Below, piece by piece: positions 494 to 16,861 of a stretch of 44,442 nt of DNA. The notes beneath the pieces were generated by a model that saw only the letters and a list, made by a program, of their open reading frames with translations, was not told the origin of the DNA and searched no databases. A program made the translations under genes and the position numbers. How positions within the stretch are numbered: the stretch's first letter is position 1; every line of letters starts with the position of its first letter. Origin of the DNA: a virus; IMG/VR virus record IMGVR_UViG_3300025141_000197, positions 1-44,442 of that record. One strand, given 5' to 3'.

Positions 494-682
494 ATACCAA
501 CTTTGTACCAACTTCGTACCAACTTTGCAATAAATGGCGGAATACTGCGGTTTTTGGCGTACCAACTTTGTACCAACTTCGTACCAACTTTCCTGGTATC
601 ACGTGGTCCCAAAACCCTTAATTTGGCCAAGTTGGTACAAAGTTGGTACAAAGTTGGTACAAAGTTGGTACAAAGTTGGTAC
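494..682. repeat. Array of eleven 11-bp iterons, six forward and five inverted
   Basis: Forward units GTACCAACTT(T/C) occupy 494-526 (three, the first starting with A) and 559-591 (three). Inverted units AAAGTTGGTAC occupy 628-682 (five, the first with C at its first base). Units abut exactly within each block, so the period is 11 bp, close to one helical turn. Palindrome copy 2 lies between the forward and inverted blocks. The array resembles an initiator or regulator binding array; the protein is unknown. Confidence 0.85.
594..611. repeat. Dispersed palindrome, copy 2
   Basis: TGGTATCACGTGGTCCCA. The left half is the T-type; the right half has one change. It sits 2 nt after the second forward iteron block. 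Confidence 0.75.
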
Positions 683-745: not shown

Positions 746-1120
746 ATGTTTATAATTAGGCTCAATACTACCCGCGAATACCTACATAGGAAGGGGGGTA
801 GGAACACTTATACCGCTTTACCTAAGGATGCTTCGATATTCAATACCTGGGCTGGGGCAGTCGAAACTGCTAAGCTATTGGGGGATGATCATACCGTAGT
901 CGAAATCGACGAAAGGTATGAAGCGGTATATCTAGCGGCGGGGAGGAATGTTTGCGACTGCGACAGCGGCGAGGATAGTTGGTGGGAAAATGATGCGCGT
1001 GGCATACCCTTGTGCAAAGTCTGTGATAGCTGTCGCGAGACTAAGCTAAAGGGGTATAGGATCGATGTTTTGATGGACCCGTTTTATTGGGCTGATGAAC
1101 CGATAGAGGAGATTGAATAA
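746..1120 (+). CDS. Hypothetical protein with C-terminal cysteine cluster
   Basis: This 124-residue protein starts at an ATG preceded by TGGAGG at good spacing. The first 90 residues have no motif I recognise. The region around residues 90-115 contains C-D-C, then L-C-K-V-C-D-S-C, a cluster of five cysteines that could bind zinc. Its TAA overlaps the next gene's ATG by one base, which suggests translational coupling. It is the first complete gene after the iteron region and sits just downstream of palindrome copy 3, so it is likely expressed early. The function is unknown. Confidence 0.8.
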   Translation: MFIIRLNTTREYLHRKGGRNTYTALPKDASIFNTWAGAVETAKLLGDDHTVVEIDERYEAVYLAAGRNVCDCDSGEDSWWENDARGIPLCKVCDSCRETKLKGYRIDVLMDPFYWADEPIEEIE

Positions 1121-1398
1121 TGAGTGGCCAGAAATACAGAGCCGACATTAAGGATTTGCAGCCTGATGGTGCCACCCTGTGGTTCGCTAGGTGGATGGGG
1201 GGACCTACCCTCTCTAAGATCAACAATTGCTGCCTTAATATGGCTGGGGCGATGCGGCGGACGGTCTATATCACTGGCGAGGCGGATACTTTCTTTTCCA
1301 TACCGGCAGTGTGTACCATCGCTGGCTGTCGAGTGAAGGGGTATGTAACCAGTGACGATGAGGGCTTTCTTTATTTCCAGCATGGTTACTATGCTTGA
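1120..1398 (+). CDS. Small hypothetical phage protein
   Basis: A 92-residue protein whose ATG overlaps the preceding stop codon (TAATG). The C-terminal half, from the MRRTVYITGEAD stretch at about residue 45, is dense in aromatic residues and contains two cysteines (CTIAGC). It has the look of a compact beta-rich phage accessory protein; I have the impression that this stretch is shared among phages of proteobacteria but cannot verify it. An internal ATG at 1252 could give a 48-residue product, but its ribosome binding site is poor. Palindrome copy 4 follows the stop codon. Confidence 0.75.
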   Translation: MSGQKYRADIKDLQPDGATLWFARWMGGPTLSKINNCCLNMAGAMRRTVYITGEADTFFSIPAVCTIAGCRVKGYVTSDDEGFLYFQHGYYA

Positions 1399-1401
1399 AC
1401 C

Positions 1402-1419
1402 TGGGATTACGTGATCCCA
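1402..1419. repeat. Dispersed palindrome, copy 4
   Basis: TGGGATTACGTGATCCCA, one mismatch in the left half; it is extended by C/G on each side. It lies 3 nt after a stop codon and 52 nt before the ATG at 1472. Confidence 0.85.
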
Positions 1420-1471
1420 GGTGCTGAACCACCAGTATGGCGGCGAAACCCAAGGGTGAAGGAGTTATCAT

Positions 1472-2053
1472 ATGAATACCGATCAGAAGGAAGCGGTCAG
1501 GGCCAGGGCTCGTAGTGCGATCCTGGATTTGTACCACAATGCGACGGTGAACCATCCCTACACTGAGGATGAGAGCTATTGGGATTGGTTCCAGGATACC
1601 GCCTCGTTCGAGATTGAGTATATCCAGGAGGGAGGTGCCTATGGCTCTCTAGTCAGGCACCTCCATAACGTGGGCAAGGAATGCGACCGCGAGGGTAGGT
1701 CGTTGGCCTACAAAAGTATGGCTAGGCGGCGGGAGAAGCGCAAGATACTGATAGAGCGCTCACGGTGGAGCGCCTGGGATTATACCTCTGACTGGTACGG
1801 CAAGATCTACCAGTATGGGCGAGGGGGGAGAACCTTGGCACCTTCTGATTTGATCGGGACGGGGGGAGGGGGCACCTATGCTGTGCGCGAGGACTATGCT
1901 GATGATTTGAGCATGGAGGATTGTGTCGAGCTGATCAAGGTAATCGAAAGCTTCAATTGGTTTGTAGGGTGCTGGTGCAAGGACGTACCCGACCTATGGG
2001 CCGATGAGGTTCAACAACGCGAGGAAATGGACGCTGAAGCTGGCGTCGGTTAG
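1472..2053 (+). CDS. Hypothetical protein, 193 residues
   Basis: The ATG follows AAGGAG at 8-9 nt. The protein is hydrophilic, rich in Trp, Tyr, Arg and Asp, with a basic patch MARRREKRK near the middle and an acidic C-terminus. There is no signal peptide, membrane segment or recognisable catalytic motif. A 12-codon frame (1437-1475) just upstream ends at a TGA overlapping this start, but it has no ribosome binding site of its own. The gene sits between palindrome copies 4 and 5. Function unknown. Confidence 0.75.
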   Translation: MNTDQKEAVRARARSAILDLYHNATVNHPYTEDESYWDWFQDTASFEIEYIQEGGAYGSLVRHLHNVGKECDREGRSLAYKSMARRREKRKILIERSRWSAWDYTSDWYGKIYQYGRGGRTLAPSDLIGTGGGGTYAVREDYADDLSMEDCVELIKVIESFNWFVGCWCKDVPDLWADEVQQREEMDAEAGVG

Positions 2054-2058
2054 TTTTT

Positions 2059-2076
2059 TGGTATCACGTAATCCCA
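2059..2076. repeat. Dispersed palindrome, copy 5
   Basis: TGGTATCACGTAATCCCA, mixed T-type and G-type halves with one change in the right half. It ends 19 nt before the ATG at 2096. Confidence 0.85.
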
Positions 2077-2095
2077 TTTTTCCTAGGAGAACGAA

Positions 2096-2227
2096 ATGGC
2101 TATCCATGTTACAGATATACTTTCCATCGACGACCTACCCGACCAGTGCATCGAAGAATGCTCCAGACCTGGGCGAGCGGCGGACGGGCCTGTGGATTAT
2201 TGGCGCCGGCGGTGGCCGCGCCGATGA
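2096..2227 (+). CDS. Small hypothetical protein, 43 residues
   Basis: A short frame begins at ATG 2096 behind CTAGGAGA and ends at TGA 2225-2227. The product starts MAIHVTDILSIDDLP, carries two cysteines (Q-C-I-E-E-C) and ends with an arginine- and tryptophan-rich tail (YWRRRWPRR). It resembles small phage proteins of the same size with a D-C-x3-C then YW arrangement, but I cannot name the family. The basic tail would suit nucleic-acid binding. Support comes from the ribosome binding site, the palindrome placed upstream as for its neighbours, and the tight packing. Confidence 0.6.
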   Translation: MAIHVTDILSIDDLPDQCIEECSRPGRAADGPVDYWRRRWPRR

Positions 2228-2265
2228 TGGCGCGGTTAGGTGAAACTTCTTTGGAGGTTTTGGAT

Positions 2266-2853
2266 ATGACAAAGTTTGGATGGAGCTACCCTGCCGGCGC
2301 AGCGGACGATCCCAACGCGCCCTACAATCAGGATGCGGAACCGCCCGACAACAGCATCATTAAGGAGGCGTTTGCCCGCGACTATGGCAGCCCCTTCGAG
2401 TTGTACCGGGCAACCTACAAATACACCGACTGCGGACCCAGTGTCGGGGTGCAGATCGAATATGAGGATGCCGGCGAGGATGGCATGGGGCCTTATGCCG
2501 CGCTGAAAACGAAATGGCTCTATTGCGATGATCTCCGTGAGCTTGGCACCTGGGCAGACATCGACGCGCAAGGCCTGCCAATCCTGGCAATTTCTGTATC
2601 GTCAATTGTGGAAGGCGTGGAGCAATGCGTTGACCCTGTGGTGATAGAGATCGACCGCGAGAACGATACCGGCGAGACACTGGCGGAGCGCTACAGCAAG
2701 GCGGTGAAGGAGGTTGACGAAGCCGCCGACGAAATTTGGAAGCAAACCCACGGCTGCGACGACTGCGGGCCGGAAAACTTCGACGAATACGCCGGTTATA
2801 GGGCAATCAATCCCGACTGCCCAACCTGCGAAGGAAAAGGGGTGGTGATATGA
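2266..2853 (+). CDS. Hypothetical protein with C-terminal CxxC zinc-finger-like motif
   Basis: I chose the ATG at 2266 because TTGGAGG lies 8 nt upstream; the open frame extends to 2146 without a better site. The 195-residue product is acidic. Its last 45 residues carry C-D-D-C-G and C-P-T-C-E-G-K-G, the paired pattern of a DnaJ-type or ribbon zinc site. The first 150 residues look globular with no known motif. The TGA overlaps the next ATG (ATGA). Its base composition is slightly richer in GC than the flanking small genes. Function unknown. Confidence 0.75.
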   Translation: MTKFGWSYPAGAADDPNAPYNQDAEPPDNSIIKEAFARDYGSPFELYRATYKYTDCGPSVGVQIEYEDAGEDGMGPYAALKTKWLYCDDLRELGTWADIDAQGLPILAISVSSIVEGVEQCVDPVVIEIDRENDTGETLAERYSKAVKEVDEAADEIWKQTHGCDDCGPENFDEYAGYRAINPDCPTCEGKGVVI

Positions 2854-3098
2854 GGAACGCACGATTCTGGATAATCTGGCACGAGTCGCCGGTCAAGATC
2901 ACGTTGAAACCAGGGCAGACGCTTTCGGCGGCGACGGGTGGCCCTGATGAAGAGGGTTGGGACAGGGAAGAATTAGCTGATTGGGACGACGATAGATTGG
3001 CCGATACAGTTCTTTGGTTAGCTTGTTGCGATTTCGCGGATTGGGATGGGACTGAGAGTTCACCATCTGGCTCTGATATTTTTACACTCGACAATTAA
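2850..3098 (+). CDS. Small acidic hypothetical protein, 82 residues
   Basis: Its start overlaps the upstream stop as ATGA, implying translational coupling. The product is acidic and Trp-rich, with several D-W-D repeats (ADWDDD, ADWDG), a composition sometimes seen in DNA-mimic or host-takeover proteins, although composition alone is weak evidence. No domain is recognised. Confidence 0.65.
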   Translation: MRNARFWIIWHESPVKITLKPGQTLSAATGGPDEEGWDREELADWDDDRLADTVLWLACCDFADWDGTESSPSGSDIFTLDN

Positions 3099-3108
3099 GG
3101 AGAAAGCT

Positions 3109-3477
3109 ATGACTGAGAAAACAATCCCTAACGTACCCAGCACTGCCTATCGGGTAGGCTCTACTGAGATGATCGTGGCCATGTTTCATATGCCTCGCGT
3201 GTCTATGACTTCACCAGCGTCTATCATCATGAAGTTTACCCCTCAAGAGCTACACCCCTGGAAGGTGTTTTGGTTCAACGCTGAGTTTGGTGGCTACAGT
3301 AGTGGTGGTTATCATAAGAAGTATGAGGAAGCTTTGAAAGACTTCCTTGATCGTGTTCAACGCCACGGCTTCTATACCGGCTTCGAACCACAATGGGTGG
3401 CCTTAGGCGACGGCTCTCTGCCAGCGAAGCAGACTGAGAGTGAAGTCTATCCTCCGCGTGATGGAGAGAAATCATGA
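3109..3477 (+). CDS. Hypothetical protein, 122 residues
   Basis: Start chosen at the ATG 3109, preceded by AAGGAG 5 nt after the previous stop. The sequence is rich in aromatics and Gly/Ser and looks like a small soluble globular protein, with F-G-G-Y-S-S-G-G-Y near the centre. There is no recognised motif. It overlaps the next gene by 4 nt, so the run from 3109 to 4060 is translated as a coupled unit. Confidence 0.7.
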   Translation: MTEKTIPNVPSTAYRVGSTEMIVAMFHMPRVSMTSPASIIMKFTPQELHPWKVFWFNAEFGGYSSGGYHKKYEEALKDFLDRVQRHGFYTGFEPQWVALGDGSLPAKQTESEVYPPRDGEKS

Positions 3478-3740
3478 TGCCTGATCTGACCAAGCCTTGG
3501 TGCTACTATGTTCCCTCTGACCAGAAGTGGGCGGAGCAGGGAGGCTTCATACCCTCTATTGTCGTTGAGGGTGACCAGGGGCACTACCCCATGACTGGGA
3601 ACAAGGATCAGATACCTTGGATGTGGGGTCCAACGCTGGAGGAAGCCTATGCCCAGGCTGCTAGAGCGAACGAGAGGATGGGCAAATCTGAGGACGAGGT
3701 AGACCGTATCGTATCATCATCAATGAGGGTAATAGCATGA
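3474..3740 (+). CDS. Hypothetical protein, 88 residues
   Basis: Starts at ATGATG overlapping the preceding TGA; GGAGAG is in the end of the upstream gene. The product is Trp- and Tyr-rich at the N-terminus, with a predicted helix at residues 55-80. It overlaps the next ATG by 4 nt. No family recognised. Confidence 0.7.
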   Translation: MMPDLTKPWCYYVPSDQKWAEQGGFIPSIVVEGDQGHYPMTGNKDQIPWMWGPTLEEAYAQAARANERMGKSEDEVDRIVSSSMRVIA

Positions 3741-4060
3741 CCTATGAAGTAATCGGCACCAGGAACTTCCTTCCCTTGCGAGGGGATGGTCCCAAATTTT
3801 ATAGCGTCGGCGTGGGCGGCGAGTATGACCAGCCTGGGGGCGGCGACGTTGGGGTGTATTGCTCTGACGAGGAGACTGCCCAGATAGTGGCCAGTGCCTT
3901 GAACCTGTACCAGGAGATGAAAGCTTTGCGTGGAGCCAGCAACGAACACGCTTGGATCTTCCCCACCAGTGTGGCTCTCCTCAAGCTCTGCGAGGTTATG
4001 GATGGGGTGCTAGAGCCCACCCCCATCGACCACCCTCCCCTGATCGCCAACGACCCCTAG
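3737..4060 (+). CDS. Hypothetical protein, 107 residues
   Basis: Starts in an ATGA overlap with the previous gene. The N-terminal half is Gly-rich and beta-like. A helix E-E-T-A-Q-I-V-A-S-A-L-N-L-Y follows, a pattern common in small phage proteins that begin with a short beta sheet. No catalytic motif is seen. It is the last gene of the coupled small-gene run; a possible promoter follows at 4093-4122. Confidence 0.7.
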   Translation: MTYEVIGTRNFLPLRGDGPKFYSVGVGGEYDQPGGGDVGVYCSDEETAQIVASALNLYQEMKALRGASNEHAWIFPTSVALLKLCEVMDGVLEPTPIDHPPLIANDP

Positions 4061-4092
4061 AAAACCTGAAAATAGAGTACCCCAGGAGCCCC

Positions 4093-4122
4093 TGGACATA
4101 GCCCTAAGGGTTGTGTTACTAT
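4093..4122 (+). promoter_or_regulatory. Candidate sigma70-like promoter for the secreted-protein gene
   Basis: TGGACA (4093-4098) and TACTAT (4117-4122) are separated by 18 nt in the 94-nt gap before the ATG at 4155. This is the only sizeable gap in this part of the cluster. Read by eye, not scored. Confidence 0.35.
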
Positions 4123-4154
4123 TCTGGTCCTCTGTCTCTTGCGGGAGTGCGGGT

Positions 4155-4466
4155 ATGTCCAGCCGCTTCTTGGAAAAGGCTTTCTTGGGTTTGTTCATGC
4201 TGGTGTGGGTGCTGGCCACGGCTGAGTATGCTCACGGCCAGACTGTCTGCGGGGACCGGCTAACCTTCTTGGCTAACCTCAAGCAGAAGTACCAGGAGGT
4301 TACCGCCCACATGGGTTTGGTTGCGACGGGCGCGGTAGTCGAGATTGTGGTATCCCCCAAGGGCACCTGGACGATGGTCGTAACCAACCCTCAGGGTGTT
4401 GCGTGTATCGTAGCGACAGGGACGGCTTGGGAAGCCTTCATGGGCGAGGGTGAGGATCAGATTTAG
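4155..4466 (+). CDS. Secreted or periplasmic hypothetical protein
   Basis: The start at ATG 4155 gives 103 residues with a classic signal peptide: basic start (SSRFLEK), hydrophobic core (AFLGLFMLVWVLATA) and a likely signal peptidase I site near A-H-G/Q at about residue 29. The mature part, about 75 residues, has two cysteines (VCGDR and VACIV) and a segment P-K-G-T-W-T-M-V-V-T that resembles small exported proteins of alphaproteobacteria, but I cannot name the family. An exported protein outside the lysis cassette is unusual in a lytic phage and could act in the envelope, for example in superinfection exclusion; that role is inference. Confidence 0.7.
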   Translation: MSSRFLEKAFLGLFMLVWVLATAEYAHGQTVCGDRLTFLANLKQKYQEVTAHMGLVATGAVVEIVVSPKGTWTMVVTNPQGVACIVATGTAWEAFMGEGEDQI

Positions 4467-4474
4467 ATTTTTTT

Positions 4475-4492
4475 TGGTATCACGTGATACCA
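4475..4492. repeat. Dispersed palindrome, copy 6 (perfect T-type)
   Basis: TGGTATCACGTGATACCA, a perfect 18-bp palindrome with T at position 4 and A at position 15. It ends 14 nt before the ATG at 4507 and is followed by GGAGG. Confidence 0.9.
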
Positions 4493-4506
4493 TTTCGGAG
4501 GGAACT

Positions 4507-4686
4507 ATGGAAATTTACTACTACGAAGTTTCAGGACCTATCACAACCCCGATAGATGGTCTATCTACATACGGCACTATCGACAAGGGCTTCATTACTG
4601 CCATTGATTTTGATGAGGCTTATGACGCTGTTAGGAGAATTTTTTCTGCTGATGCGTCCGCCATAGAATTGAAACGCGCTAACTAG
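4507..4686 (+). CDS. Small hypothetical protein, 59 residues
   Basis: ATG 4507 has GGAGG 8 nt upstream; the longer upstream frame reads through the palindrome and is not credible. The product begins MEIYYYEVSG and has a C-terminal helical half (FDEAYDAVRRIF), the look of a small alpha/beta protein. No family recognised. It ends 9 nt before the primase-helicase gene and is likely co-transcribed with it. Confidence 0.65.
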   Translation: MEIYYYEVSGPITTPIDGLSTYGTIDKGFITAIDFDEAYDAVRRIFSADASAIELKRAN

Positions 4687-4695
4687 GCTCGCAAC

Positions 4696-6666
4696 ATGAG
4701 CGAGCTACTAGAGGCGGCGCTTAGTTATGCTGAGCGAGGGTGGCCGGTCTTTCCGTGCCGCGCTGACAAGACACCTTACACTAGGCATGGTGTTCTCGAC
4801 GCCACGACTGACCCTGATAAGATCAGGGCTATGTGGGAGGAGCATCCTGGTGCTAACATAGGGATGAATTGCGGCGAGGCCGGCTTCGTTACCCTCGACT
4901 ATGATCCTGGCCACGACAGGGATGAGGTAGCGAAAGCGCTGGGCGGCGAGATACCTCCCACCAGACTTATAGCCAGAACACCCAGAGGAGGGACGCATGA
5001 ACACTACCAACTCGCCAGTGACGATGATCCAGTTGCATCGTCGGTTGAGCCGTTTGCAAAACACGTTGATATACGCTCGTTCAATGGTTACGTCCTTCTC
5101 CCTCCATCCAGAACTAAAGATGGAGTGTACGAATGGATCAAAGAAGGAAAGCCTGGAAGTCGAACTAAGGCTCTCCTTGAGGCTTGTCGGCCCGCGCGAT
5201 CTAAACACGCTGACAGAGATGCTTGGATTATTGAACAAGACCTCCCCGAAAATATCGAAGGTGCCATTGTATGGCTCCATGACGAAGCCCGACTAGCGAT
5301 TGAGAATTCGGGCGGCGACCTCACGACCTATGCCACGGCGGCGATGATGAAGTCGTATGGGCTTAGCGAGGAGACGGCAGCGGAGGTGATGTGGGAGCAT
5401 TGGAACAAGCGGTGCCTCCCCCCATGGGAATGGGATGATATCGTTACCAAGGTATCCCGCGCATACCAGTACAATACCTCCCCACCAGGGAACTGTACCA
5501 AAGCCTATCAGGTGGCCCATGTGGTGCTCCAGTTCAAGCCAATCGTGGAGCCAGCAGGGGAGGGACGCACCCTCAAGACAGGACGCTTCCGCATCGTTGA
5601 CTGGGAGGGGATGCAATCTATCCAGAAGCCAACGTGGCTGCTTCCAGATTTTTTGACGGACGGTGGGTATGGATTATTGATAGGACCCCGGTCGAGCTTG
5701 AAAACATTTATCGCATTGGACGCTGCTTTAACGGTGGCCACTGGGGGTGTGCCGCCATGGGAGGATAGGTCGGGTTGGAGGGGGGCGTGGGATTGCCCCG
5801 ACGACCCTGGCCCTGTCCTCTACGCGGTGGGGGAGGGACGATCAGGACTTCGTTTGCGCGCTAACGGCTGGACTAGGGTGCATCACGAAGGTCGTCCCTC
5901 CCCCAAGATGTATTTGGCCGACCCAGTACCAAGGGTATCGGAGGGTTTAGAAGCACTAGACGGCTTCATAGAAGGTGCGCTAGAATTTGAACCTCACGGT
6001 TACCGCATGGTGGTGATCGATACAGTAGGGCGGTCAATGCAAGGATTAAACGAGAATGCCCAAGAACACGCATCATCATTTACTGCCATGGTTGAACATC
6101 TACAACGAAATCTTTGTGACACAGTTCTTGCCGTCCACCACACAGGCCACGACGCCAAAGACAGAGGCAGGGGATCAAGCGTCTTCGAAGCCGACGCAGA
6201 TACCATCGTCGTCGTCTCCCGCAAGGACCAAGACAAATACTCGCGAATGAAGATGACCAAGCAGAAGGATGCTCCTGAGTGGGAGCGTCCTCGCTGGGTG
6301 GAGGGTATGAAGGTCAAGATGGGCGACGAGGGGGAGACGACCTTGGCCATCGTCAGGGCTGAGGAGCAGGAGGGGGAGAAGCAGGAAGCGAGGAAGGAGA
6401 AGAGTGAAGGCACAAAGCTGTGGGTAATAGATAAATTCGCTATGAAAGTTCTGAAGAAGTACCCACACGAAGAGATGACAGACACGAACTTCTCTAAGAA
6501 GATAGGTGCTTTTGAGGACAAGGATGGTTCTGGGGTAGGACTAGAAGCGGGGACTATCCGGCAGCGCTATCTTGATAAACTGCGTATGCCTTCAAATAAC
6601 TGTGAGGTTAGGCAACACTATGACGCAGGAAAAAGTCGTTGGCGGTACTCACCACCGACTGAGTGA
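4696..6666 (+). CDS. Bifunctional primase-polymerase / replicative helicase
   Basis: This 656-residue protein fuses an archaeo-eukaryotic-type primase-polymerase domain (residues about 1-160; GWPVFPC start, VTLDYDPG with acidic residues, and an RSFNGYVLLPPS stretch) to a RecA/AAA_25-type ATPase (about 310-520). The Walker A is GPRSSLKT near residue 329, with Leu where Gly usually precedes Lys; this S-L-K variant occurs in the RepA-like family. Walker B is VVIDT near 438 and a VHHTGHD stretch follows. It should prime and unwind DNA at the replication fork. The remaining C-terminal region is charged and helical. It is the first replication gene and pairs with the polymerase at 13701. Confidence 0.9.
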   Translation: MSELLEAALSYAERGWPVFPCRADKTPYTRHGVLDATTDPDKIRAMWEEHPGANIGMNCGEAGFVTLDYDPGHDRDEVAKALGGEIPPTRLIARTPRGGTHEHYQLASDDDPVASSVEPFAKHVDIRSFNGYVLLPPSRTKDGVYEWIKEGKPGSRTKALLEACRPARSKHADRDAWIIEQDLPENIEGAIVWLHDEARLAIENSGGDLTTYATAAMMKSYGLSEETAAEVMWEHWNKRCLPPWEWDDIVTKVSRAYQYNTSPPGNCTKAYQVAHVVLQFKPIVEPAGEGRTLKTGRFRIVDWEGMQSIQKPTWLLPDFLTDGGYGLLIGPRSSLKTFIALDAALTVATGGVPPWEDRSGWRGAWDCPDDPGPVLYAVGEGRSGLRLRANGWTRVHHEGRPSPKMYLADPVPRVSEGLEALDGFIEGALEFEPHGYRMVVIDTVGRSMQGLNENAQEHASSFTAMVEHLQRNLCDTVLAVHHTGHDAKDRGRGSSVFEADADTIVVVSRKDQDKYSRMKMTKQKDAPEWERPRWVEGMKVKMGDEGETTLAIVRAEEQEGEKQEARKEKSEGTKLWVIDKFAMKVLKKYPHEEMTDTNFSKKIGAFEDKDGSGVGLEAGTIRQRYLDKLRMPSNNCEVRQHYDAGKSRWRYSPPTE

Positions 6667-6668
6667 TT

Positions 6669-6686
6669 TGGGATCACGTGATACCA
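6669..6686. repeat. Dispersed palindrome, copy 7
   Basis: TGGGATCACGTGATACCA, a G-type left half with a T-type right half. It lies 2 nt after the helicase stop and ends 16 nt before the ATG at 6703. Confidence 0.9.
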
Positions 6687-6702
6687 CTAGACAAGGAGGG
6701 AT

Positions 6703-6849
6703 ATGCTAGAGTACACTGAGGAAGCTAAAGAGCGATACCGGAGGGTAACACATATCATAGGAGAGATAGTCGTCTGGGGCCACATAGTGGTCTGGGCGGG
6801 AGGTTTCTGTCTCTACCTCTACGGACTGTACCTCTGGATTTTCAATTGA
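6703..6849 (+). CDS. Small membrane protein, 48 residues
   Basis: ATG 6703 follows AAGGAGGG and the frame ends at TGA 6847-6849. The N-terminal 20 residues are charged and helical (MLEYTEEAKERYRR). Residues about 18-48 are hydrophobic and aromatic (IVVWGHIVVWAGGFCLYLY), enough for one transmembrane segment, with a tryptophan- and tyrosine-rich end typical of a membrane interface. It is encoded between the helicase and a basic protein and is preceded by a palindrome copy. Function unknown; host membrane targeting is inference. Confidence 0.65.
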   Translation: MLEYTEEAKERYRRVTHIIGEIVVWGHIVVWAGGFCLYLYGLYLWIFN

Positions 6850-6869
6850 AACCCTGAGGAGGGAAAACG

Positions 6870-7613
6870 ATGGCGAAGAAGACCAAGAAGACCGGCGGCG
6901 CGGCGGCGAAAGCCAAAGAAGCAATGAAGAAGGCTAAGGCTGCGGAGAAGGAAGCTGCCAAGGCTGAGAAGCTAGCCGCCAAGGAGAAGGCTGCGAAGGC
7001 TAAGGCTGCTGCCCAGAAGAAGGCTGAGAAGGCTCTCGATCCGCTCGCCAAGGAAATCAACAGCCGCTTGGAGTTGGCTGCGAAGAGTGAGGGTAAGGCT
7101 GACGATCACCGTCTCACAGCGGCGATCAGGCTGGACGAGGTGAAGACCCGTTGCGATGAGTTGGGTCTGAAGTTCAAATCTTGGTGCGAAAATAACCTCG
7201 ATGAGAAGTGGTCCTATGAAAACGCTCGCAAGCTGGCTCGCATCGGCGCTGCCGACGATCCTAAGCTGGCGTTGGAAGACCTTCGCGTAGGCACCCGTCA
7301 GAAGATGAAGGAGAAGCGGGACAAGGATAAGAAGGAGAAGAAGGAAGCTCCTAAGAAGTCCGCGCCCAAGGTTGCTGAGGAAGCTTTCGACAATATGTCG
7401 AAGGATGACGCAGAGAAGGTGATCAAGAAAGCGGTAAAGAAGCATAAGCTCAGAAGCAAGGCCGTTGGTAAGGGCCTTGAGGGTGCTATCGATGCTTTCG
7501 AAGGTCTGGACGCCAAAGACAAGATGCGGCTCCTGGCTCACATGGCCGAGAAGATGGACGCTGAGGTTACCATCTTTGGTGAGGACATCCACAAGGCTGT
7601 GGAAGACCTGTAG
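6870..7613 (+). CDS. Basic Ala/Lys-rich protein, DNA-binding candidate (paralogue of the 43274-44131 product)
   Basis: The ATG is preceded by GAGGAGGG. The 247-residue protein starts with an Ala/Lys/Glu-rich helical tail resembling histone H1-like or coiled-coil tails (residues 1-60). A central domain follows with a K-S-W-C-E-N-N-L then Y-E-N-A-R-K-L-A-R-I-G-A-A segment (about 110-140), a pattern recalling the helical core of DUF3102-type phage proteins. A Lys-rich linker and a helical C-terminal domain (about 190-247) end the protein. The product at 43274-44131 has the same architecture and near-identical segments such as ARIGAA and PKLALEDLR. DNA binding is inferred from composition and helices. 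It is a candidate ligand of the palindromes, unproven. Confidence 0.75.
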   Translation: MAKKTKKTGGAAAKAKEAMKKAKAAEKEAAKAEKLAAKEKAAKAKAAAQKKAEKALDPLAKEINSRLELAAKSEGKADDHRLTAAIRLDEVKTRCDELGLKFKSWCENNLDEKWSYENARKLARIGAADDPKLALEDLRVGTRQKMKEKRDKDKKEKKEAPKKSAPKVAEEAFDNMSKDDAEKVIKKAVKKHKLRSKAVGKGLEGAIDAFEGLDAKDKMRLLAHMAEKMDAEVTIFGEDIHKAVEDL

Positions 7614-7625
7614 ACCTGAAACTAG

Positions 7626-7653
7626 CCTGGGATCACGTGATCCCAGGTTTTTT
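7626..7653 (+). terminator. Intrinsic terminator built on a palindrome copy
   Basis: Palindrome copy 8 is extended by CC and GG into an 11-bp inverted repeat followed at once by a run of seven T. On the plus strand this is a plausible Rho-independent terminator between the basic protein and thyX, although the loop can be no more than about four bases after partial melting. Confidence 0.55.
7628..7645. repeat. Dispersed palindrome, copy 8 (perfect G-type)
   Basis: TGGGATCACGTGATCCCA, the full 18-bp consensus. It lies 24 nt before the thyX ATG and is followed by a T-run. Confidence 0.9.
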
Positions 7654-7669
7654 TCTGGAGGGAATTCAA

Positions 7670-8413
7670 ATGAAGATCGACGTTCTAGATCACGGTTATG
7701 TGATCCTTCGCAACATCGCTGGTCCCACCCCACGTGTTGATAAAGTTGGCTGGGATGGGATTGGGTCACGCTTCGACGCTGATGATACGGACCCAGCCAA
7801 TGCTGCTCGCTTCTCCTTCGACGGTGCCGACGACAAGGATCGCACCCGCGAGGAAGATTTGAAGCTGGCTGAATACCTTCTCAAGAATGGCCACACTACA
7901 CCATTCGAGATGATCGAGGTTTGGTTTGAGATGCAAATGCCTATTTTCGTGGCGCGACAGTTTGTTCGCCATAGGACGGTCAGCATCAACGAGGTATCGG
8001 CGCGCTACACCAAGCTACCCAATCAGTTCTATATCCCTGACCCTGTTAACGTAGGAGTGAAGTCTGCGACCAATAAGCAAGGGAGAAATATCAAAGAGGG
8101 GGATATTGAGAATGCTTATGCTTGGGTTAATATGATAGAGAAACATTGTGAAGTGTCTTATTTGGGGTATGCAACATCCCTCGATAATGGCATCCCTAAC
8201 GAGCTGGCGCGTATGATCCTGCCGCTCAACATTTACACGAAGTGGCTTTGGAACCAGGACCTCCACAACCTCATGCACTGTATGAAGCTGCGCCTTCACA
8301 GCCACGCTCAGTTTGAGGCTCGCGCTTACGCCCAGGCTATGTATGACCTGTTGAGGAGGGTGCTACCGCACAGCATGGACCTGTTTGATAAGTACCGAAG
8401 GATAGAGGAGTAA
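7670..8413 (+). CDS. thyX: Flavin-dependent thymidylate synthase
   Basis: The start is ATG 7670 behind GGAGGG; an upstream in-frame start would read out of the palindrome. At 247 residues it has normal ThyX length. The family signature RHRxxSxNExSxRY is present as R-H-R-T-V-S-I-N-E-V-S-A-R-Y-T near residue 100. ThyX makes dTMP from dUMP using FAD, NADPH and methylene-tetrahydrofolate as a homotetramer in the cytoplasm, and here would supply thymidine for phage DNA synthesis. A probable terminator precedes it, so it may have its own promoter. A 20-residue membrane peptide gene follows within 4 nt. Confidence 0.95.
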   Translation: MKIDVLDHGYVILRNIAGPTPRVDKVGWDGIGSRFDADDTDPANAARFSFDGADDKDRTREEDLKLAEYLLKNGHTTPFEMIEVWFEMQMPIFVARQFVRHRTVSINEVSARYTKLPNQFYIPDPVNVGVKSATNKQGRNIKEGDIENAYAWVNMIEKHCEVSYLGYATSLDNGIPNELARMILPLNIYTKWLWNQDLHNLMHCMKLRLHSHAQFEARAYAQAMYDLLRRVLPHSMDLFDKYRRIEE

Positions 8414-8417
8414 GGAG

Positions 8418-8480
8418 ATGGATTTCGCCACTATCACTATCATTCTCATTATCTTAGCAGCGTTTCTAGGACAATCATGA
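8418..8480 (+). CDS. Twenty-residue hydrophobic membrane peptide
   Basis: A minute frame with ATG 8418 and TGA 8478-8480, starting 4 nt after the thyX stop; TAAGGAG around that stop gives a close ribosome binding site. The peptide MDFATITIILIILAAFLGQS is one hydrophobic segment. Its TGA overlaps the next gene's ATG (ATGA). Position and overlap suggest real translation, at least as a coupling leader for the helicase gene; a toxin-like or membrane regulatory role is possible. Its shortness keeps confidence moderate. Confidence 0.45.
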   Translation: MDFATITIILIILAAFLGQS

Positions 8481-9934
8481 GCGACCATGCGGTAGAAGCA
8501 AGCTGGGCGACGGAGCCAATGTTCTATGAGGCTCCCTCGCCACCAGGGCAAGACCCACGCCAGTACCAGTATGCAGCCGTGGAGTATTGCCTCTCTCGCG
8601 ATCACGCGCTCATAGGGGATGCTCCAGGGCTTGGCAAGACTATTGAGCTGATCATGCTCTCTAATGCTATTGAGGCTAAGAAGAACCTAGTCGTATGCCC
8701 TGCCAGCCTGAGACTGAACTGGGAGAGGGAAATCTGGCGCTGGTCTATGCTGTCTAACGTCCGCACCTACCCAGTCCTTAAGGCCAAGGATGGGGTTAGC
8801 CCAGAGACAAACTACCTCATCGTGTCTTACGATATGCTGAGGAACAATAACATCCTCCAGGCTATCCTCGACTTGCGGTGGGATCACTTGATCCTAGACG
8901 AGGCCCATTACCTCAAAGACCCTAAGGGCAATAAAAGGACGGCAGCTATCTGTGCGGAGGATGGGCTGAGGTCGGTGGCGGGGCGTATTACCATGGCCAG
9001 TGGTACGATCCTCCCGAACCAACCCATCGAATGCTACAACGCAATCCGGCTCTTGAACTGGGACGCTATCGATAACATCAGCGTCGATAGCTTTCGTGAT
9101 TATTTTTATGAGAAAGGGCAGGGTTTCGTCACGGGCAGATACGAGACTACCCTCAAGGATGGGAGCAAGGTGTGGAAGTATGGCCCGCACTGGTCAGAGG
9201 AGGTCCGCAACGTCCCCTGCAATCTTGAACAGCTTCGCACTATCCTTCGCGGCGAGATAATGATCCGCCGCCTCAAGGAAGACGTACTCCCAGAGCTACC
9301 CAAAAAGCAATGGCACGTGTTCCCTCTGGCTGCGTCGAGTGAAGTCAAGAAGGCAATGGCCGACAAGAGTTGGAGTAAGGTCGAGAAGCTATACGAACTA
9401 GACGCTGGCGCATTTGATGAAGGCATCCCTATTGACGGTGCTATCTCGACAGCCTTCCGCTTGTTGGGCGAGGCCACGGCTCCTTCTATCGCTGACTATA
9501 TCGATGACCTTTTCGATAGTGGTGTGGAGAAGTTAGTGGTTGGCGCGTGGCATAGGTCAGTGCTAGACTACCTTAAGGAACGCCTAGGGAAATATGGTGT
9601 TGCGTACATGGATGGCAGCACCAGCACCAAGAGGAAGCAAGCCCAGGTCGATCTGTTTCAAGAGGACGCAGACATACGCATTATGCTTGGTCAGGTCCAG
9701 CCCTTGGGAGAAGGGTGGACGCTAACTGAGGCCCAGGATGTAGTACAAGCTGAACCCTGGTGGGTGCCAGGAAAGAACGATCAGTTGTTGGAGCGCACAC
9801 ATCGCTTCGGCCAGGAGGGAGACAGGGTGCTAGGGCATATGCCTTTCGTCCCCGGTACTCTGCATGAGAAGATCATTAGCCAGGTTGTGACTAAGGATCG
9901 CAACATCTATGAGACGCTTGATGTAAGAGATTGA
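8477..9934 (+). CDS. SNF2/SWI2-family DEAH helicase
   Basis: A 485-residue superfamily 2 ATPase of the compact phage SNF2 type. Motif I is G-D-A-P-G-L-G-K-T (about residues 47-55) and motif II is D-E-A-H (about 141-144). A SGTILPNQP segment corresponds to motif III. The C-terminal RecA-like domain ends with ERTHRFGQEGDR, equivalent to motif VI (H-R-x-G-Q). Such proteins translocate on duplex DNA and are common in phage replication and recombination modules; the exact role here is open. Next to ThyX and upstream of DUF2800 and DUF2815 genes, it fits a replication/recombination cassette. Confidence 0.92.
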   Translation: MSDHAVEASWATEPMFYEAPSPPGQDPRQYQYAAVEYCLSRDHALIGDAPGLGKTIELIMLSNAIEAKKNLVVCPASLRLNWEREIWRWSMLSNVRTYPVLKAKDGVSPETNYLIVSYDMLRNNNILQAILDLRWDHLILDEAHYLKDPKGNKRTAAICAEDGLRSVAGRITMASGTILPNQPIECYNAIRLLNWDAIDNISVDSFRDYFYEKGQGFVTGRYETTLKDGSKVWKYGPHWSEEVRNVPCNLEQLRTILRGEIMIRRLKEDVLPELPKKQWHVFPLAASSEVKKAMADKSWSKVEKLYELDAGAFDEGIPIDGAISTAFRLLGEATAPSIADYIDDLFDSGVEKLVVGAWHRSVLDYLKERLGKYGVAYMDGSTSTKRKQAQVDLFQEDADIRIMLGQVQPLGEGWTLTEAQDVVQAEPWWVPGKNDQLLERTHRFGQEGDRVLGHMPFVPGTLHEKIISQVVTKDRNIYETLDVRD

Positions 9935-9941
9935 GGTTGCC

Positions 9942-10229
9942 ATGCCTGAACTGGACTTAATGAAGAACTGGTTACTGTTCGGGGTGGCAATCTTTGCGCC
10001 GATAAGCGCATGGTTCGCGATGAAGTATGGCCAGAGGGAGAATACCAACAAGCTAAAAGATCAGGATGAGCGCATCAAAGCCTTGGCTGAACAAGTCAAG
10101 GCGCAGTGGCAGAAGTCGGATCAGATTAGCGTCGGGACACAGAAAGTGGAGACTACGATAAAGTGGCTTAAGGCCGACGCTGCTAGGATCGATAACGTAG
10201 TTGAATACATGAGGAGGAAAGACAGTTGA
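9942..10229 (+). CDS. Membrane-anchored coiled-coil protein, 95 residues
   Basis: Starts 7 nt after the helicase stop with GAGGT upstream. Residues about 9-27 form one transmembrane segment (WLLFGVAIFAPISAWFAM). The rest is a charged coiled coil (KLKDQDERIKALAEQVKAQ and onward). The layout is like the product at 17261-17521 in the lysis cassette, which is also one membrane helix followed by a coiled coil, but here it sits among replication genes. It could tether replication proteins to the membrane or act late in lysis; neither can be shown by reading. Confidence 0.7.
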   Translation: MPELDLMKNWLLFGVAIFAPISAWFAMKYGQRENTNKLKDQDERIKALAEQVKAQWQKSDQISVGTQKVETTIKWLKADAARIDNVVEYMRRKDS

Positions 10230-10254
10230 CCACACCTTTTAGTTCGCTTACAAT
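10226..10254 (+). promoter_or_regulatory. Sigma70-like promoter upstream of the poly-Glu gene
   Basis: TTGACC (10226-10231) and TACAAT (10249-10254) are separated by exactly 17 nt, and the -10 ends 30 nt before the ATG at 10285. The -35 overlaps the stop codon of the preceding gene. It is the best promoter match I find on the plus strand and would drive the DUF2800/DUF2815 genes. Confidence 0.6.
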
Positions 10255-10284
10255 TATCAATCGTACTCATGAAGGAGGGAAATC

Positions 10285-11030
<746 letters not shown>

Positions 11031-11034
<4 letters not shown>

Positions 11035-12254
11035 GCGAGCTACAAGCTCACTCTCCTCTAGGAGCGAGTGGGGCATACCGTTGGATGGTATGCCCCGGCT
11101 CCGTGGGTCATAGCGCTGGCGTTATTGACCCAGAGAGTGAGTTCGCAGCCCTTGGCACCGCCGCTCATGCTTTAGCATCCCTATGCCTCACCTCTGGTGA
11201 TGAGATCGATGCGTGGCTTTTAATAGGTGAGTGGGTGTATGAGGGTGAGATCGTTGGACCTGGGCCATCTCCCGAAGATATGCCACACCTGGAACAGGTT
11301 ATCCACATCGACAAGGGTATGGCTGATGCCGTCCAGGTCTACCTCAACGCAGTGCGCTACGAACACCCTGATCAGAACCAGGGCAACACCTGGGTAGAGC
11401 GTAAGTTCCACTGCCCCGATATCCATGAACTATTCTACGGCACTGCCGACTTCGTTCACTACGATGAGGCCAAGTCCACGCTCCACGTATGGGATTACAA
11501 GCATGGTGCTGGGATCGTGGTGGATGTCTTCGCTAACCCTCAGCTCATGTATTACGCTTGTGGAGCGCTCACTGACCTTAGGTTATGGAAAGTGGCAAAA
11601 CGTATTGTCTTACACGTAGCCCAACCTAGGGGTTGGCATAGCGACGGTCCATTGAGGGAGTGGTCAATTACGAAAGGCGAGCTAGCTAACTGGCTAGACG
11701 ATGTTTTAGTTCCAGCTATGGACCGCGCCCAAACATCAACCGACACAGCCAGTGGTGATCACTGCCGGTTCTGTCCCGCTCGTTGGAGGGCTTGCCCACA
11801 ACTCGTTGCTGATGAGAAGGAGCTAACGAAACTCATGGCCAAAATGAAGGAGAAGGGGGGAGCCAAGAAGCTATCCCATAAGGACATCGCTCGCTTGCTC
11901 GACCTGGGCGAGGTGATGAAGATCAGCATCAAGGCGGCGAGGGAGAATGGTTTCGCCCGCGCTGAGGGAGGAGCGAAGATACCAGGGTGGAAGCTGGTCA
12001 AGGCTCGCTCCAATCGCGAGTTCAAGGAGACTGCCGAGAAGGCAGCGATCAAGAAGTTTGGTAAAGACAAAGCTTTCACGACGCCTGAGTTGAAGTCGCC
12101 AGCCAAGATCGACACACTACCAGGAGGGAAGAAGTTCACGACTGAGTACGCTTTCAAACCTGAGAAAGGTATGCAATTGGTTCAAGCCAGTGATGCCCGC
12201 AACGAAGCTGGGCCTAGCACTAGGTCTATGTTCAAACCCCAACACAATAATTAG
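11031..12254 (+). CDS. DUF2800 family PD-(D/E)XK nuclease, Cas4/RecB-like
   Basis: Starts at a GTG overlapping the upstream TGA (GTGA). The 407-residue protein carries the RecB-type nuclease pattern: G-T-A-D-F-V and, about 20 residues later, V-W-D-Y-K-H-G, giving the metal-binding D and the D-x-K. Cysteines at C21 and in H-C-R-F-C-P-A-R-W-R-A-C (about 243-254) match the four-cysteine iron-sulphur site of Cas4/AddB-like nucleases. It probably processes DNA ends for recombination. DUF2800 genes usually lie beside a DUF2815 gene in phages, as here. The C-terminal third is basic and helical. Confidence 0.9.
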
Positions 12255-12268
12255 AAGGAAGATTGACT

Positions 12269-12898
12269 ATGGCCGAAGCGAAGAAGATTGTTACCCCTGT
12301 CGGGCGGATCATCAATGGTTCGTTGTTCACCAAGGAAATCTACACCAACGAGAAGGGGCAGGAGGGAACCCCCAGCTACAAGCTGGAGATGGCTTTCGAG
12401 CCTGATGCGCTGGAGGACCTGGAGGATGCCATCGTCCAGTGCGCCATCGATGAGTGGGGCGACGACGCCGACGACGATTACGATAACGGCGATATCCGTA
12501 GCCCCATTCACGATGGGGATGAGCTTGCCAAGAAGCGCGAGAAGAAGGGCAAGTCGGGCGATGCCTATGCTGGTATGGAAATCATTCGTGCCAGCACCAT
12601 CTACAACGCTCACGGCGAAGATGCCCCCGGTGGTATCTACGTGGCCGACGCTGCTGCTGAGCAGTTGACGTTCGATGAGCGTGGTAAGGTCTACAACGGC
12701 AGCTATGGCATCGCTATCGTGACCCCCAGTGCCTACGAGATCAGCGGCAACCGTGGCGTCACGTTGTACCTCCAGGCTTACCAGTTCGCCAAGGACGGCG
12801 AGCCTCTGCGTGGCGTCAACGCTGGCGCTTCGATGTTCACCTCTCAGGTGAGCGACAAGAGCGAGGGCAAAGGTCGCCGCAAGCGCAAAAGTAAGTAG
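12269..12898 (+). CDS. DUF2815 single-stranded DNA-binding protein
   Basis: I chose ATG 12269, behind AGAAGGAAG, over the TTG two codons upstream. The 209-residue product has the features of the DUF2815 family: an N-terminal G-R-I-I-N-G-S-L-F strand, an ARG-like beta core with Y-I/V-Q-A-Y-Q-F near the end, and a variable charged middle (DDADDDYDNGD). DUF2815 proteins bind ssDNA and act as the phage's SSB-like partner in replication and recombination. It ends in a basic tail (GKGRRKRKSK), unlike the acidic tails of bacterial SSB. A terminator follows at 12957-12997. Confidence 0.85.
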   Translation: MAEAKKIVTPVGRIINGSLFTKEIYTNEKGQEGTPSYKLEMAFEPDALEDLEDAIVQCAIDEWGDDADDDYDNGDIRSPIHDGDELAKKREKKGKSGDAYAGMEIIRASTIYNAHGEDAPGGIYVADAAAEQLTFDERGKVYNGSYGIAIVTPSAYEISGNRGVTLYLQAYQFAKDGEPLRGVNAGASMFTSQVSDKSEGKGRRKRKSK

Positions 12899-12956
12899 GT
12901 TTCTACGAGAGGGATCATGGGTTTACCCACTCTCATGTTGAAGTCTCGTAGGGAAG

Positions 12957-12997
12957 CTAGGGGTGTGTTCTCGCGGGCGCACCCCTAGTGCTTTTTT
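12957..12997 (+). terminator. Intrinsic terminator after the DUF2815 gene
   Basis: Arms CTAGGGGTG (12957-12965) and CACCCCTAG (12980-12988) form a perfect 9-bp stem with a 14-nt loop, followed by TGCTTTTTTG. It lies 12 nt before the next gene's start, so it would attenuate transcription into the polymerase genes. A 23-codon frame (12917-12988) ends within the stem. Confidence 0.75.
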
Positions 12998-13009
12998 GAG
13001 GAGGGAAAT

Positions 13010-13510
13010 ATGAAGATCATCGTTGGCCAACCACCTAACTACGAAGAGATCGTCAAGGCGATCCCCAGCGTCAAGAAGTTCAGCGTTATCTATGCCTGGG
13101 GTGACCGTATGTATGCCCCCACCACCAAGACCGTTCCCAAGCATCTCATCGCCCATGAGAGCGTCCACATGGCTCGCCAGAGGGCTTTCGTGATCGCGCT
13201 GTACGAGACGCAGTGGGAGAGCATCACCGAAGCCAGTCGCGAGGAGGGCATCGACGCTTGGTGGAACTGCTATCTCAACGATATGAAGTTCCGCTTCGAT
13301 GAGGAGCTTCCCGCGCACCAGGGCGAGTACCTTTGGTTCCTTCAGAATGGGGCGCATCGACCGGAGCGGCGGCGAGCGCTGTCTGAGATTTCTCGTCGTC
13401 TGGCTGGGCCACTCTATGGTCGTCTCATCACCAAGGGCGCAGCCAGGGAGCTGATGGAGATCGTTCACGGCTGGCGGGATCACGTGATCCCAAAGGAGGT
13501 GGAGGTATGA
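13010..13510 (+). CDS. HExxH-motif protein, putative zinc metalloprotease-like
   Basis: ATG 13010 follows GAGGAGGG. The 166-residue protein contains I-A-H-E-S-V-H-M-A-R-Q near residues 46-56, a canonical HExxH zincin motif, and Trp/Tyr-rich helices after it (E-A-S-R-E-E-G-I-D-A-W-W-N-C-Y). The third zinc ligand may be E79 or E83 on the following helix. It is small for a protease and lies in the replication module, so its substrate is unknown; it may be a minimal peptidase or a degenerate fold. The palindrome at 13475 encodes R-D-H-V-I-P at its C-terminus and lies 14 nt before the next gene. Confidence 0.75.
   Translation: MKIIVGQPPNYEEIVKAIPSVKKFSVIYAWGDRMYAPTTKTVPKHLIAHESVHMARQRAFVIALYETQWESITEASREEGIDAWWNCYLNDMKFRFDEELPAHQGEYLWFLQNGAHRPERRRALSEISRRLAGPLYGRLITKGAARELMEIVHGWRDHVIPKEVEV
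13475..13492. repeat. Dispersed palindrome, copy 10 (at a gene end)
   Basis: CGGGATCACGTGATCCCA, with a perfect 16-bp core. It is inside the last codons of the HExxH gene, in the D-H-V-I frame, and ends 14 nt before the ATG at 13507, the same spacing as the intergenic copies. Confidence 0.9.
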
Positions 13511-13704
13511 GGTTTATCTTAAACGAGGCGGGTCAGGGAAATGACATTCTCATGCTACGGACAGCCAGAAGTATCTGGTACAAGCTTCGGGACGGAGAGA
13601 TGGCGGTTGGCGACGTAGGAGTGCTAAGGTGGGACGACGGGTCAGATTACACCTATCGCATAAACAAGAGCAGTATATCTGTCTGGTCTACGAGTAAGTC
13701 ATGA
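13507..13704 (+). CDS. Small hypothetical protein, 65 residues
   Basis: ATG 13507 overlaps the preceding stop as ATGA and has AAAGGAGGTGGAGG just upstream. The product is a small basic, beta-like protein (W-Y-K-L-R-D-G-E, then YTYRINKSSISVW). Its TGA overlaps the polymerase ATG, so the two are translationally coupled. No family recognised. Confidence 0.65.
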   Translation: MRFILNEAGQGNDILMLRTARSIWYKLRDGEMAVGDVGVLRWDDGSDYTYRINKSSISVWSTSKS

Positions 13705-15710: not shown

Positions 15711-15874
15711 CCTGGGAAAAATTACTTGAGCTACCTGAAGGATGGCTGGGAACTCTCGTTGAGGGAAGAATAATCGTCACCCACCCTAACCATCCTCCTA
15801 GGGTGCTGCCTGTATCAGAGATTAAGTTTATGCCTTTCGAGGAGTGGCCTGAGTTGGAGATCGACCATGGGTAA
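15707..15874 (+). CDS. Small hypothetical protein, 55 residues
   Basis: I chose ATG 15707, which overlaps the polymerase stop (ATGA); GGGGGAGAGG lies 8-16 nt upstream. The product starts MTWEKLLELPEGW and has a beta-like middle (GRIIVTHPNHPPRVLPV). It overlaps the nuclease gene by 8 nt. No family recognised. Confidence 0.6.
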   Translation: MTWEKLLELPEGWLGTLVEGRIIVTHPNHPPRVLPVSEIKFMPFEEWPELEIDHG

Positions 15875-16229
15875 GCTCAGCCGCGACAAAGGAAAGATTG
15901 GGGAGCGGGAGGTTGTCCAGCTTCTTAAGGATTGGGGCTGGAAGGCAAAGCGTGGTCAGCAATTCAGGGGCGGTCCTGACAGCCCTGATGTGATCCATAA
16001 CATGGTGAACCTCGATCCCGCTGGAATAGAGATAGCTATTGAGGTTAAGTGGCGTCAACAGTTGAACCTTTATGATGCTCTCAAGAAGCTGACGGACGAG
16101 CAAAAGCCTGGGGAGCCAATCATCCCCACCGTGTTCCACCGCAAGGACAGGAAGGATTGGTTGGTCACGCTCGACGCCAACGACTTCCTTGAGATCGTTT
16201 ACTGTATGCACCACTACAACGATATCTAA
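15867..16229 (+). CDS. PD-(D/E)XK endonuclease, Holliday-junction-resolvase-like
   Basis: The 120-residue product fits the small Hjc/VRR-type nuclease fold: a G-E-R-E-V helix start (Glu near 13-15), then S-P-D-V with the active-site Asp near 44, then I-E-V-K-W with the E-x-K near 60. The helix L-Y-D-A-L-K-K-L follows. Such enzymes cut branched DNA before packaging and are expected beside polymerase and recombination genes. The alternatives are a VRR-NUC nuclease or an archaeal-type resolvase; I cannot separate them by eye. Palindrome copy 11 follows the stop. Confidence 0.8.
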   Translation: MGKLSRDKGKIGEREVVQLLKDWGWKAKRGQQFRGGPDSPDVIHNMVNLDPAGIEIAIEVKWRQQLNLYDALKKLTDEQKPGEPIIPTVFHRKDRKDWLVTLDANDFLEIVYCMHHYNDI

Positions 16230-16230
16230 C

Positions 16231-16248
16231 TGGGATCACGTGATCCCA
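16231..16248. repeat. Dispersed palindrome, copy 11 (perfect G-type)
   Basis: TGGGATCACGTGATCCCA, full consensus, beginning 1 nt after the nuclease stop and ending 16 nt before the ATG at 16265. Confidence 0.9.
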
Positions 16249-16264
16249 TGACCAGGAGAGAAAG

Positions 16265-16861
16265 ATGGATGACAGTAAGACTAAGAAAGACGACGGCAAG
16301 GTTCCGATCTACACTGGATGTGTGGCCCGCTTCCCCTTGGCGCTGCGGGAGGTGGCTATAGTCTCCCAGGAGAACGCTGTAAAAAAGTACAACACTAGCC
16401 CTGGCGACATGGGCTACCTGGAGGTCGAGAATGGATGGGATCGATATTCGGATGCGCTACTTGGCCACATGATGGACGACGATCCGCAAGGTGGAAAGCG
16501 CAATCCCAGCGACTACAACGTGTATCATGCGGCACAAGTGGCTTGGTGTGCGTTGGCTCGTCTGGAGATGATGATAAGGCGTTCAGGGGATGTGGCCAGT
16601 GTCCGCGACCCGTTTACGTTTGAGCATGAGGAGTGGGATGACCCTACCGACGAAGCGGCGGCGATGCAGAAGGCATTACTCTACAGCATACCCCGAAACG
16701 CAGCGCGCACTCCCGAGGATGAAGAGGATGGGAGGCGTCGCGTCATATACCCCGCACCGCCTAAAGAGGGTGAAGTGGGCTACGTCGCGCCAGGGCATGA
16801 AAGGCGGAACCCACCAGCTAAGCCGGGGACCGTCAGGTTCAGCGGCAGGGACGGGAACTAA
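16265..16861 (+). CDS. DUF5664-like dATP/dGTP diphosphohydrolase-type protein
   Basis: ATG 16265 follows AGGAGAG. The first 110 of 198 residues match the DUF5664 pattern: K-D-D-G-K-V-P-I, then F-P-L-A-L-R-E-V-A, a K-Y-N segment, N-G-W-D-R-Y-S-D-A-L-L-G-H-M, and Y-H-A-A-Q-V-A-W-C-A-L-A-R-L-E. Members are related to MazG-like nucleotide pyrophosphohydrolases, so a role in the dNTP pool is likely. The C-terminal 85 residues are charged and proline-rich. It is the last rightward gene and overlaps the lysozyme gene of the opposite strand by 4 nt at their 3' ends. I see no PurZ gene that would indicate a 2-aminoadenine genome. Confidence 0.7.
   Translation: MDDSKTKKDDGKVPIYTGCVARFPLALREVAIVSQENAVKKYNTSPGDMGYLEVENGWDRYSDALLGHMMDDDPQGGKRNPSDYNVYHAAQVAWCALARLEMMIRRSGDVASVRDPFTFEHEEWDDPTDEAAAMQKALLYSIPRNAARTPEDEEDGRRRVIYPAPPKEGEVGYVAPGHERRNPPAKPGTVRFSGRDGN

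Follow-up and report, generated by a model that had tools for sequence, protein, structure and literature searches.

The window is the whole of IMG/VR virus record IMGVR_UViG_3300025141_000197 (44,442 bp). A rightward gene series at 746–16861 (+ strand) carries replication functions, among them a primase-helicase in which a Prim-Pol is joined to a helicase (4696–6666), a thymidylate synthase, an SNF2 helicase, a DUF2800/exonuclease-family protein, a single-strand binding protein, and a family A polymerase (13701–15710). Leftward genes encode a portal, the major head protein, terminase subunits, tail proteins, a holin, and a lysozyme; the best matches of the portal are epsilon15-like phages, with about 40% identity. 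By its gene content the record is that of a self-sufficient podovirus-like phage, and its own capsid, portal, terminase, and polymerase genes exclude satellite status. The last 16 nucleotides (44427–44442) are all C. In L013, one of three relatives (L011–L013) whose primase-helicase is 74% identical to that of the window, about 1.1 kb (3872–4946) lies between the equivalents of window positions 44341 and 1; judged by this comparison, the window is probably a permuted genome from which a short piece is absent. Degenerate GC-rich repeats of the type GGCGCTGGCTGGC lie in long non-coding stretches of the window (42186–42580 and 44202–44384), and a similar 15-bp tandem array is found at 3797–3858 of L013.

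The element analyzed here fills a non-coding interval between genes that end at 298 and start at 746. Its features, and those of the proteins discussed with it, are as follows.

299–745, no strand: non-coding interval with the whole element, 447 bp
426–473, no strand: GC-rich stem-loop, GGGGGGGTCT/TATA/AGACCCCTCCCC, with iteron-like outer arms TTTTGGTAT and ATACCAAAA
494–526, + strand: forward iteron block 1, three 11-bp units at 494, 505, and 516
527–558, no strand: spacer between the forward blocks, containing ATACTGCGGTTTTT, which is like a motif in about six of ten related clusters (marginal)
559–591, + strand: forward iteron block 2, three 11-bp units at 559, 570, and 581
594–611, no strand: palindrome copy, 18 bp; the same place holds a palindrome in L011–L013
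628–682, − strand: inverted iteron block, five 11-bp units at 628, 639, 650, 661, and 672
4696–6666, + strand: primase-helicase with a Prim-Pol domain (PF09250), an AAA_25 helicase domain (PF13481) like that of RSF1010 RepA, and a predicted C-terminal winged helix; proposed initiator
6364–6663, + strand: predicted winged-helix domain (AF2 model), proposed iteron reader
6870–7613, + strand: basic helical paralogue 1, HTH-like, no Pfam family above cut-off
43274–44146, − strand: basic helical paralogue 2, HTH-like, no Pfam family above cut-off

The original prediction described 11 iterons in opposed blocks around a palindrome copy, and both observations were confirmed. Six forward and five inverted units keep a period of exactly 11 bp within each block, and the palindrome copy, TGGTATCACGTGGTCCCA, lies between forward block 2 and the inverted block. 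The iteron unit is GTACCAACTTY, except that the first unit (494) starts with A. When up to one mismatch is allowed, GTACCAACTT occurs 13 times in the window (11 of these inside the array), compared with 1.95 on average and at most 7 in dinucleotide shuffles; a scan of the whole 44-kb record found the exact 10-mer confined to the array. An open reading frame at 404–742 was rejected as a gene because most of the indels that distinguish the interval from that of L013 (1, 20, 1, 1, 3, 14, and 1 nt) would break its frame. The array region is 58% A + T compared with 47% for the genome, and no strongly AT-rich opening region was found at the array, where A + T reaches a maximum of 62% in 40-nt steps. 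The spacer at 527–558 is a possible opening region. The shared spacer motif GTTTACTGCGGT is present in 6 of 10 lineages, but 1 of 12 controls gave an equal count, which makes the motif marginal. The GC-skew check proposed with the original prediction revealed a turn near the array, but gene direction turns there too, so the two causes are inseparable; skew tracks gene direction and was set aside as evidence for an origin. When the window and the array were used as queries in near and distant DNA searches of the phage collection, no match was obtained, and viral contigs searched for a pattern of three units in tandem gave none either.

In L011–L013 the elements follow in the order hairpin, three forward units, three forward units, palindrome, and four inverted units. 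When the window is compared with L013 (73% identity), identity is 96% in the 9-bp iteron cores and 17% in the 2-bp linkers that separate them; it is 85% in the palindromes and 62% in the remaining spacer DNA. Retention of the core while the linkers change is the hallmark of core recognition by a protein. Linkers are largely uniform inside each virus, which suggests concerted change. Elsewhere in these genomes, window positions 1451–2076 are 92% identical to L011–L013, compared with about 73% in the flanks; this segment, which starts just after the palindrome at 1402 and ends at the palindrome at 2059, is by this measure a recently exchanged gene cassette.

Alignments of the primase-helicase, used as search queries, gave further lineages in which the enzyme is 41–51% identical to that of the window. 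Opposed clusters were found in nine further lineages in all (enzyme 41–74% identical), eight of them distant, and nearly all have their own unit, as listed below.

L011–L013: TTACCAACATC
L014: TTGCACGATTA
L016/L018: GACCAACAAATC
L017: ATTACCAA
L019: TCATACCAT
L115: TTGGGATTT
L116: TAAGGCACAGG
L117/L118/L122/L123: GTATCACGA
L121: TTACAGTCT

Several of these units have a -TACCA- or -CCAAC- core in common with the window. The cluster lies directly 3′ of the primase-helicase gene in L017, L116, and L121, about 0.7 kb 3′ of it in L115, and about 3.4 kb 3′ of it in L122 and L123. It lies 4 to 5.5 kb upstream in some lineages, and in the window it is located about 4.0 kb upstream of the gene rather than 3′ of it. 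No cluster was found in L015, L020, L114, and L120, in which the enzyme is present, or in L119 and L139; these records may be incomplete.

Just left of the array we noticed a GC-rich hairpin (426–473) that was absent from the original prediction. A scan for perfect stems overlooked bulged hairpins, and folding was used instead. The hairpin has a folding z-score of −4.3 relative to shuffles and ranks 13th among 4439 windows of the record for local hairpin strength. The corresponding z-scores in relatives are −5.7 (L013), −5.8 (L014), and −3.5 (L019), and most related clusters have a hairpin in the top 1.4% of windows at or adjoining the cluster. In L013, both hairpin arms are genuine inverted iterons (GAAGTTGGTAA and TTACCAACATC). 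We propose that the hairpin is a candidate element for helicase entry or priming, or a terminator; as a terminator it could shield the origin instead of serving as a priming or entry site. A T-run follows the hairpin in L117 and L118, and the window hairpin is without one.

The palindrome within the array belongs to a dispersed set. About 18–22 copies of the 18-bp sequence TGGKATCACGTGATMCCA are found across the window, often at gene edges (for example, at 301, 594, 713, 1402, 2059, 4475, 7628, 16231, 31299, and 44227), and the palindrome recurs in most relatives. Its core, TCACGTGA, is that of the parS site bound by ParB. In L013, a perfect 32-bp tandem repeat of 3.2 copies that begins TTGGGATACG (1185–1288) adjoins palindrome copies. 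The original prediction drew attention to the resemblance between TTGGTA in the inverted iteron and the T-type half of the palindrome, a kinship that does not survive comparison: the array palindrome of the closest relatives is TGGGATCACGTTATCCCA, which is without the T-type half, and their iteron core is unchanged. Palindrome halves and iteron cores change independently, and the idea that the iteron is half a palindrome was rejected for the window phage, in which the likeness looks fortuitous. In L117, L118, L122, and L123, the iteron GTATCACGA equals a palindrome half. Dispersed palindromes are scarce in these four (0.4–0.7 per 10 kb); their density is 2.5–5.4 per 10 kb in the window, L116, L120, and L015, and L020 is low too (0.9). 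The two basic helical paralogues are candidate palindrome binders.

The original prediction also held that no protein in the window is an obvious iteron binder. This view has to be revised, since the C-terminus of the primase-helicase is predicted to be a winged helix, and P4 alpha binds its iterons through such a domain. Prim-Pol (PF09250, E = 2.3e-32) and AAA_25 were the only Pfam families found in the protein, whose relatives in the PDB include RSF1010 RepA (1g8y, E = 2.9e-7) and pRN1 ORF904 (1ro0, E = 0.0081). The AF2 model of the last 100 residues has a mean pLDDT of 81 and an arrangement of three helices plus a wing. A fold search with this domain gave mostly winged-helix domains as weak matches (best Z 7.6), and the P4 origin-binding domain was absent among the matches listed. 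In distant lineages, the C-terminal domain is 14–37% identical to that of the window, compared with 33–60% for the other domains, which makes it the fastest-evolving part of the enzyme. L117 and L118 have the same iteron and the same recognition helix. From the model and the analogy with known initiators, we infer that the C-terminal winged helix probably binds the iterons, although its quick change may come from weak constraint.

Opposed clusters were also found at loci that mostly have only the Prim-Pol domain in common with the window. These 78 loci (L141–L218; 1.31 Mb), fetched from bacterial genomes, were abandoned as a negative control when clusters proved to be concentrated beside their Prim-Pol genes. 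Within about 460 bp 3′ of a Prim-Pol gene lay 23 of 41 opposed clusters, compared with 1.8 expected by length (P ~5e-21, a value that assumes independent clusters, which related prophages are not). The thresholds of the cluster detector were set after the array had been seen. Despite these caveats on P-value and tuning, the direction of the result is clear: opposed clusters of short iterons accompany Prim-Pol replication genes. D5-type helicases were present in two of three Prim-Pol prophage loci checked. Opposed 9-bp repeats (e.g., AACCCTCGC and TGCAAGGGT) lie no more than about 460 bp 3′ of the Prim-Pol gene in L146, L182, L193, L203, and other prophage loci; these repeats form likely origins in alphaproteobacterial Prim-Pol prophages.

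The best explanation for the element at 299–745 is a phage replication origin served by the phage's own primase-helicase, with the C-terminal winged helix as the predicted reader of the iterons; we place the probability of this reading at roughly 0.72. Origin function of the element is well supported by sequence comparison, because the iteron cores are selected, the clusters recur with the same enzyme, some of them adjoin its gene, and the relatives of its domains are replication proteins. The replication origin favored in the original prediction therefore gains support from the relatives, whereas its statements about binders and the palindrome half do not stand. Against this reading stand the distance of about 4.0 kb from the cluster downstream to the initiator gene, the lack of a strongly AT-rich region, and the failure to find a cluster in four relatives that bear the enzyme, whose records may be incomplete.

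In the model that we propose, the winged helix would read the 9-bp core TACCAACTT, and the 11-bp spacing would stack successive protein molecules head to tail along the same side of the DNA. The opposed blocks would then set two helicase assemblies face to face, so that the DNA between them opens. It is tempting to speculate that the RepA-type helicase ring subsequently unwinds outward from the array and that the Prim-Pol lays primers, possibly at the iteron-flanked hairpin, which the family A polymerase would extend. The hairpin may act as a priming or entry site by analogy with ssiA and ssiB of RSF1010 (PMC4234260).

A replication origin could also be read by a different protein, such as a member of the basic helical family (6870–7613 or 43274–44146) or a small early protein, which would bind the iterons and recruit the primase-helicase. 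Lambda O and RSF1010 RepC recruit their helicases in this way. Nearly all the relatives searched possess the basic family, whose predicted core is compact, helical, and HTH-like, and the winged-helix assignment of the primase-helicase C-terminus is structural only. However, the family is also present in L015, L020, L114, and L120, where no cluster was found, and its more uniform sequence fits the slowly changing palindrome better than the lineage-specific units. Clusters moreover adjoin Prim-Pol genes in prophages selected for the Prim-Pol domain alone, and we consider a separate binder unlikely.

Other functions for the array appear less probable still. A repressor or activator might bind it cooperatively and control the early genes from 746, as the array is non-coding, lies just upstream of the rightward gene series, and is accompanied by palindrome copies (301, 594, and 713) that could be operators. 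Yet positions 1–1500 of the window contain no match to a sigma-70-like promoter, family searches recognized no regulator gene nearby, and in some relatives the cluster is located 3′ of the primase-helicase gene; the recurrent neighbor is the replication gene. Transcriptional control is thus improbable. The 11-bp period of the array matches that of the R1 parC iterons, and the core of the dispersed palindrome is parS-like; both would suit a centromere-like partition site. This we regard as very improbable, and an R1 parC-like centromere was rejected: no ParM-, ParR-, or ParA-like partner was found among those window proteins that were searched, the blocks face in opposite directions, and partition would be of little use to a phage with a lytic-type gene set.

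Comparison with known systems helps to place the proposed origin of replication. Two sets of short iterons have been described for all PICIs, a layout called unique to them (PMC6092414). The SaPI Rep is described as reading its origin, located just 3′ of rep, through a C-terminal domain, and C-terminal binding of origin repeats has been shown for SCCmec Cch2 (PMC7581432). The window resembles PICIs and SaPIs in its two opposed iteron sets, and L017, L116, L121, and the Prim-Pol prophages do so in the 3′ position of the cluster. In contrast, the window is a non-satellite that encodes capsid, portal, terminase, and polymerase; its helicase is RepA-like rather than D5/SF3 or DUF927; and its cluster is 4 kb from the gene, with an iteron-flanked hairpin added and a weakly AT-rich center.

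P4 alpha is a multifunctional replicase that acts as both primase and helicase and binds its origin repeats through a winged helix (PMC4234260). The window enzyme likewise unites primase and helicase in a single protein with a winged helix, here a predicted one, but P4 alpha has a TOPRIM primase in place of the archaeo-eukaryotic Prim-Pol and RepA-type helicase found here; P4 iterons and crr lay outside the comparison. At RSF1010 oriV, the iterons are bound first, followed by the stem-loops ssiA and ssiB, which are priming sites (PMC4234260). The window helicase domain is a sequence relative of RepA, and the scheme proposed here proceeds similarly from iterons to stem-loop. RSF1010 employs three proteins (RepA, RepB′, and RepC), whereas the window has one polypeptide, with Prim-Pol in place of RepB′ and the winged helix in place of RepC; the RSF1010 iterons are 20 bp long compared with 11 bp in the window. 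Finally, stem-loop origins of the pRN1 type, which have no iterons at the stem-loop, have been proposed for phages such as BIP-1 (PMC4234260). The window shares with these a Prim-Pol related to ORF904, a C-terminal winged helix (predicted here), and a stem-loop at the proposed origin; it differs in having an AAA_25 rather than an SF3 helicase and in combining iterons with a hairpin.

The PICI origin is the nearest known kind and the pRN1-type stem-loop origin is the other parent; among the families compared, the proposed window origin belongs to no single one. We tentatively suggest, as a proposal with somewhat less than even odds, that non-satellite tailed phages possess a previously undescribed class of origin in which opposed iterons and an iteron-flanked hairpin depend on a single protein with three parts: a Prim-Pol like that of pRN1, a RepA helicase like that of RSF1010, and a winged helix that reads the iterons. 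In such a class the reader would change together with its iterons, so that related phages would carry mutually exclusive origins.

Opposed iteron clusters are now found in non-satellite phages whose helicase is of another family, as well as beside Prim-Pol genes in many prophages, and for this reason the layout is probably one that self-contained primase-helicase initiators use generally. The hairpin connects iteron origins with stem-loop origins. The layout also offers a route to origins in uncultured phages by sequence alone, and the iteron units and reader domains form ten naturally occurring pairs with which the evolution of origin specificity could readily be tested.
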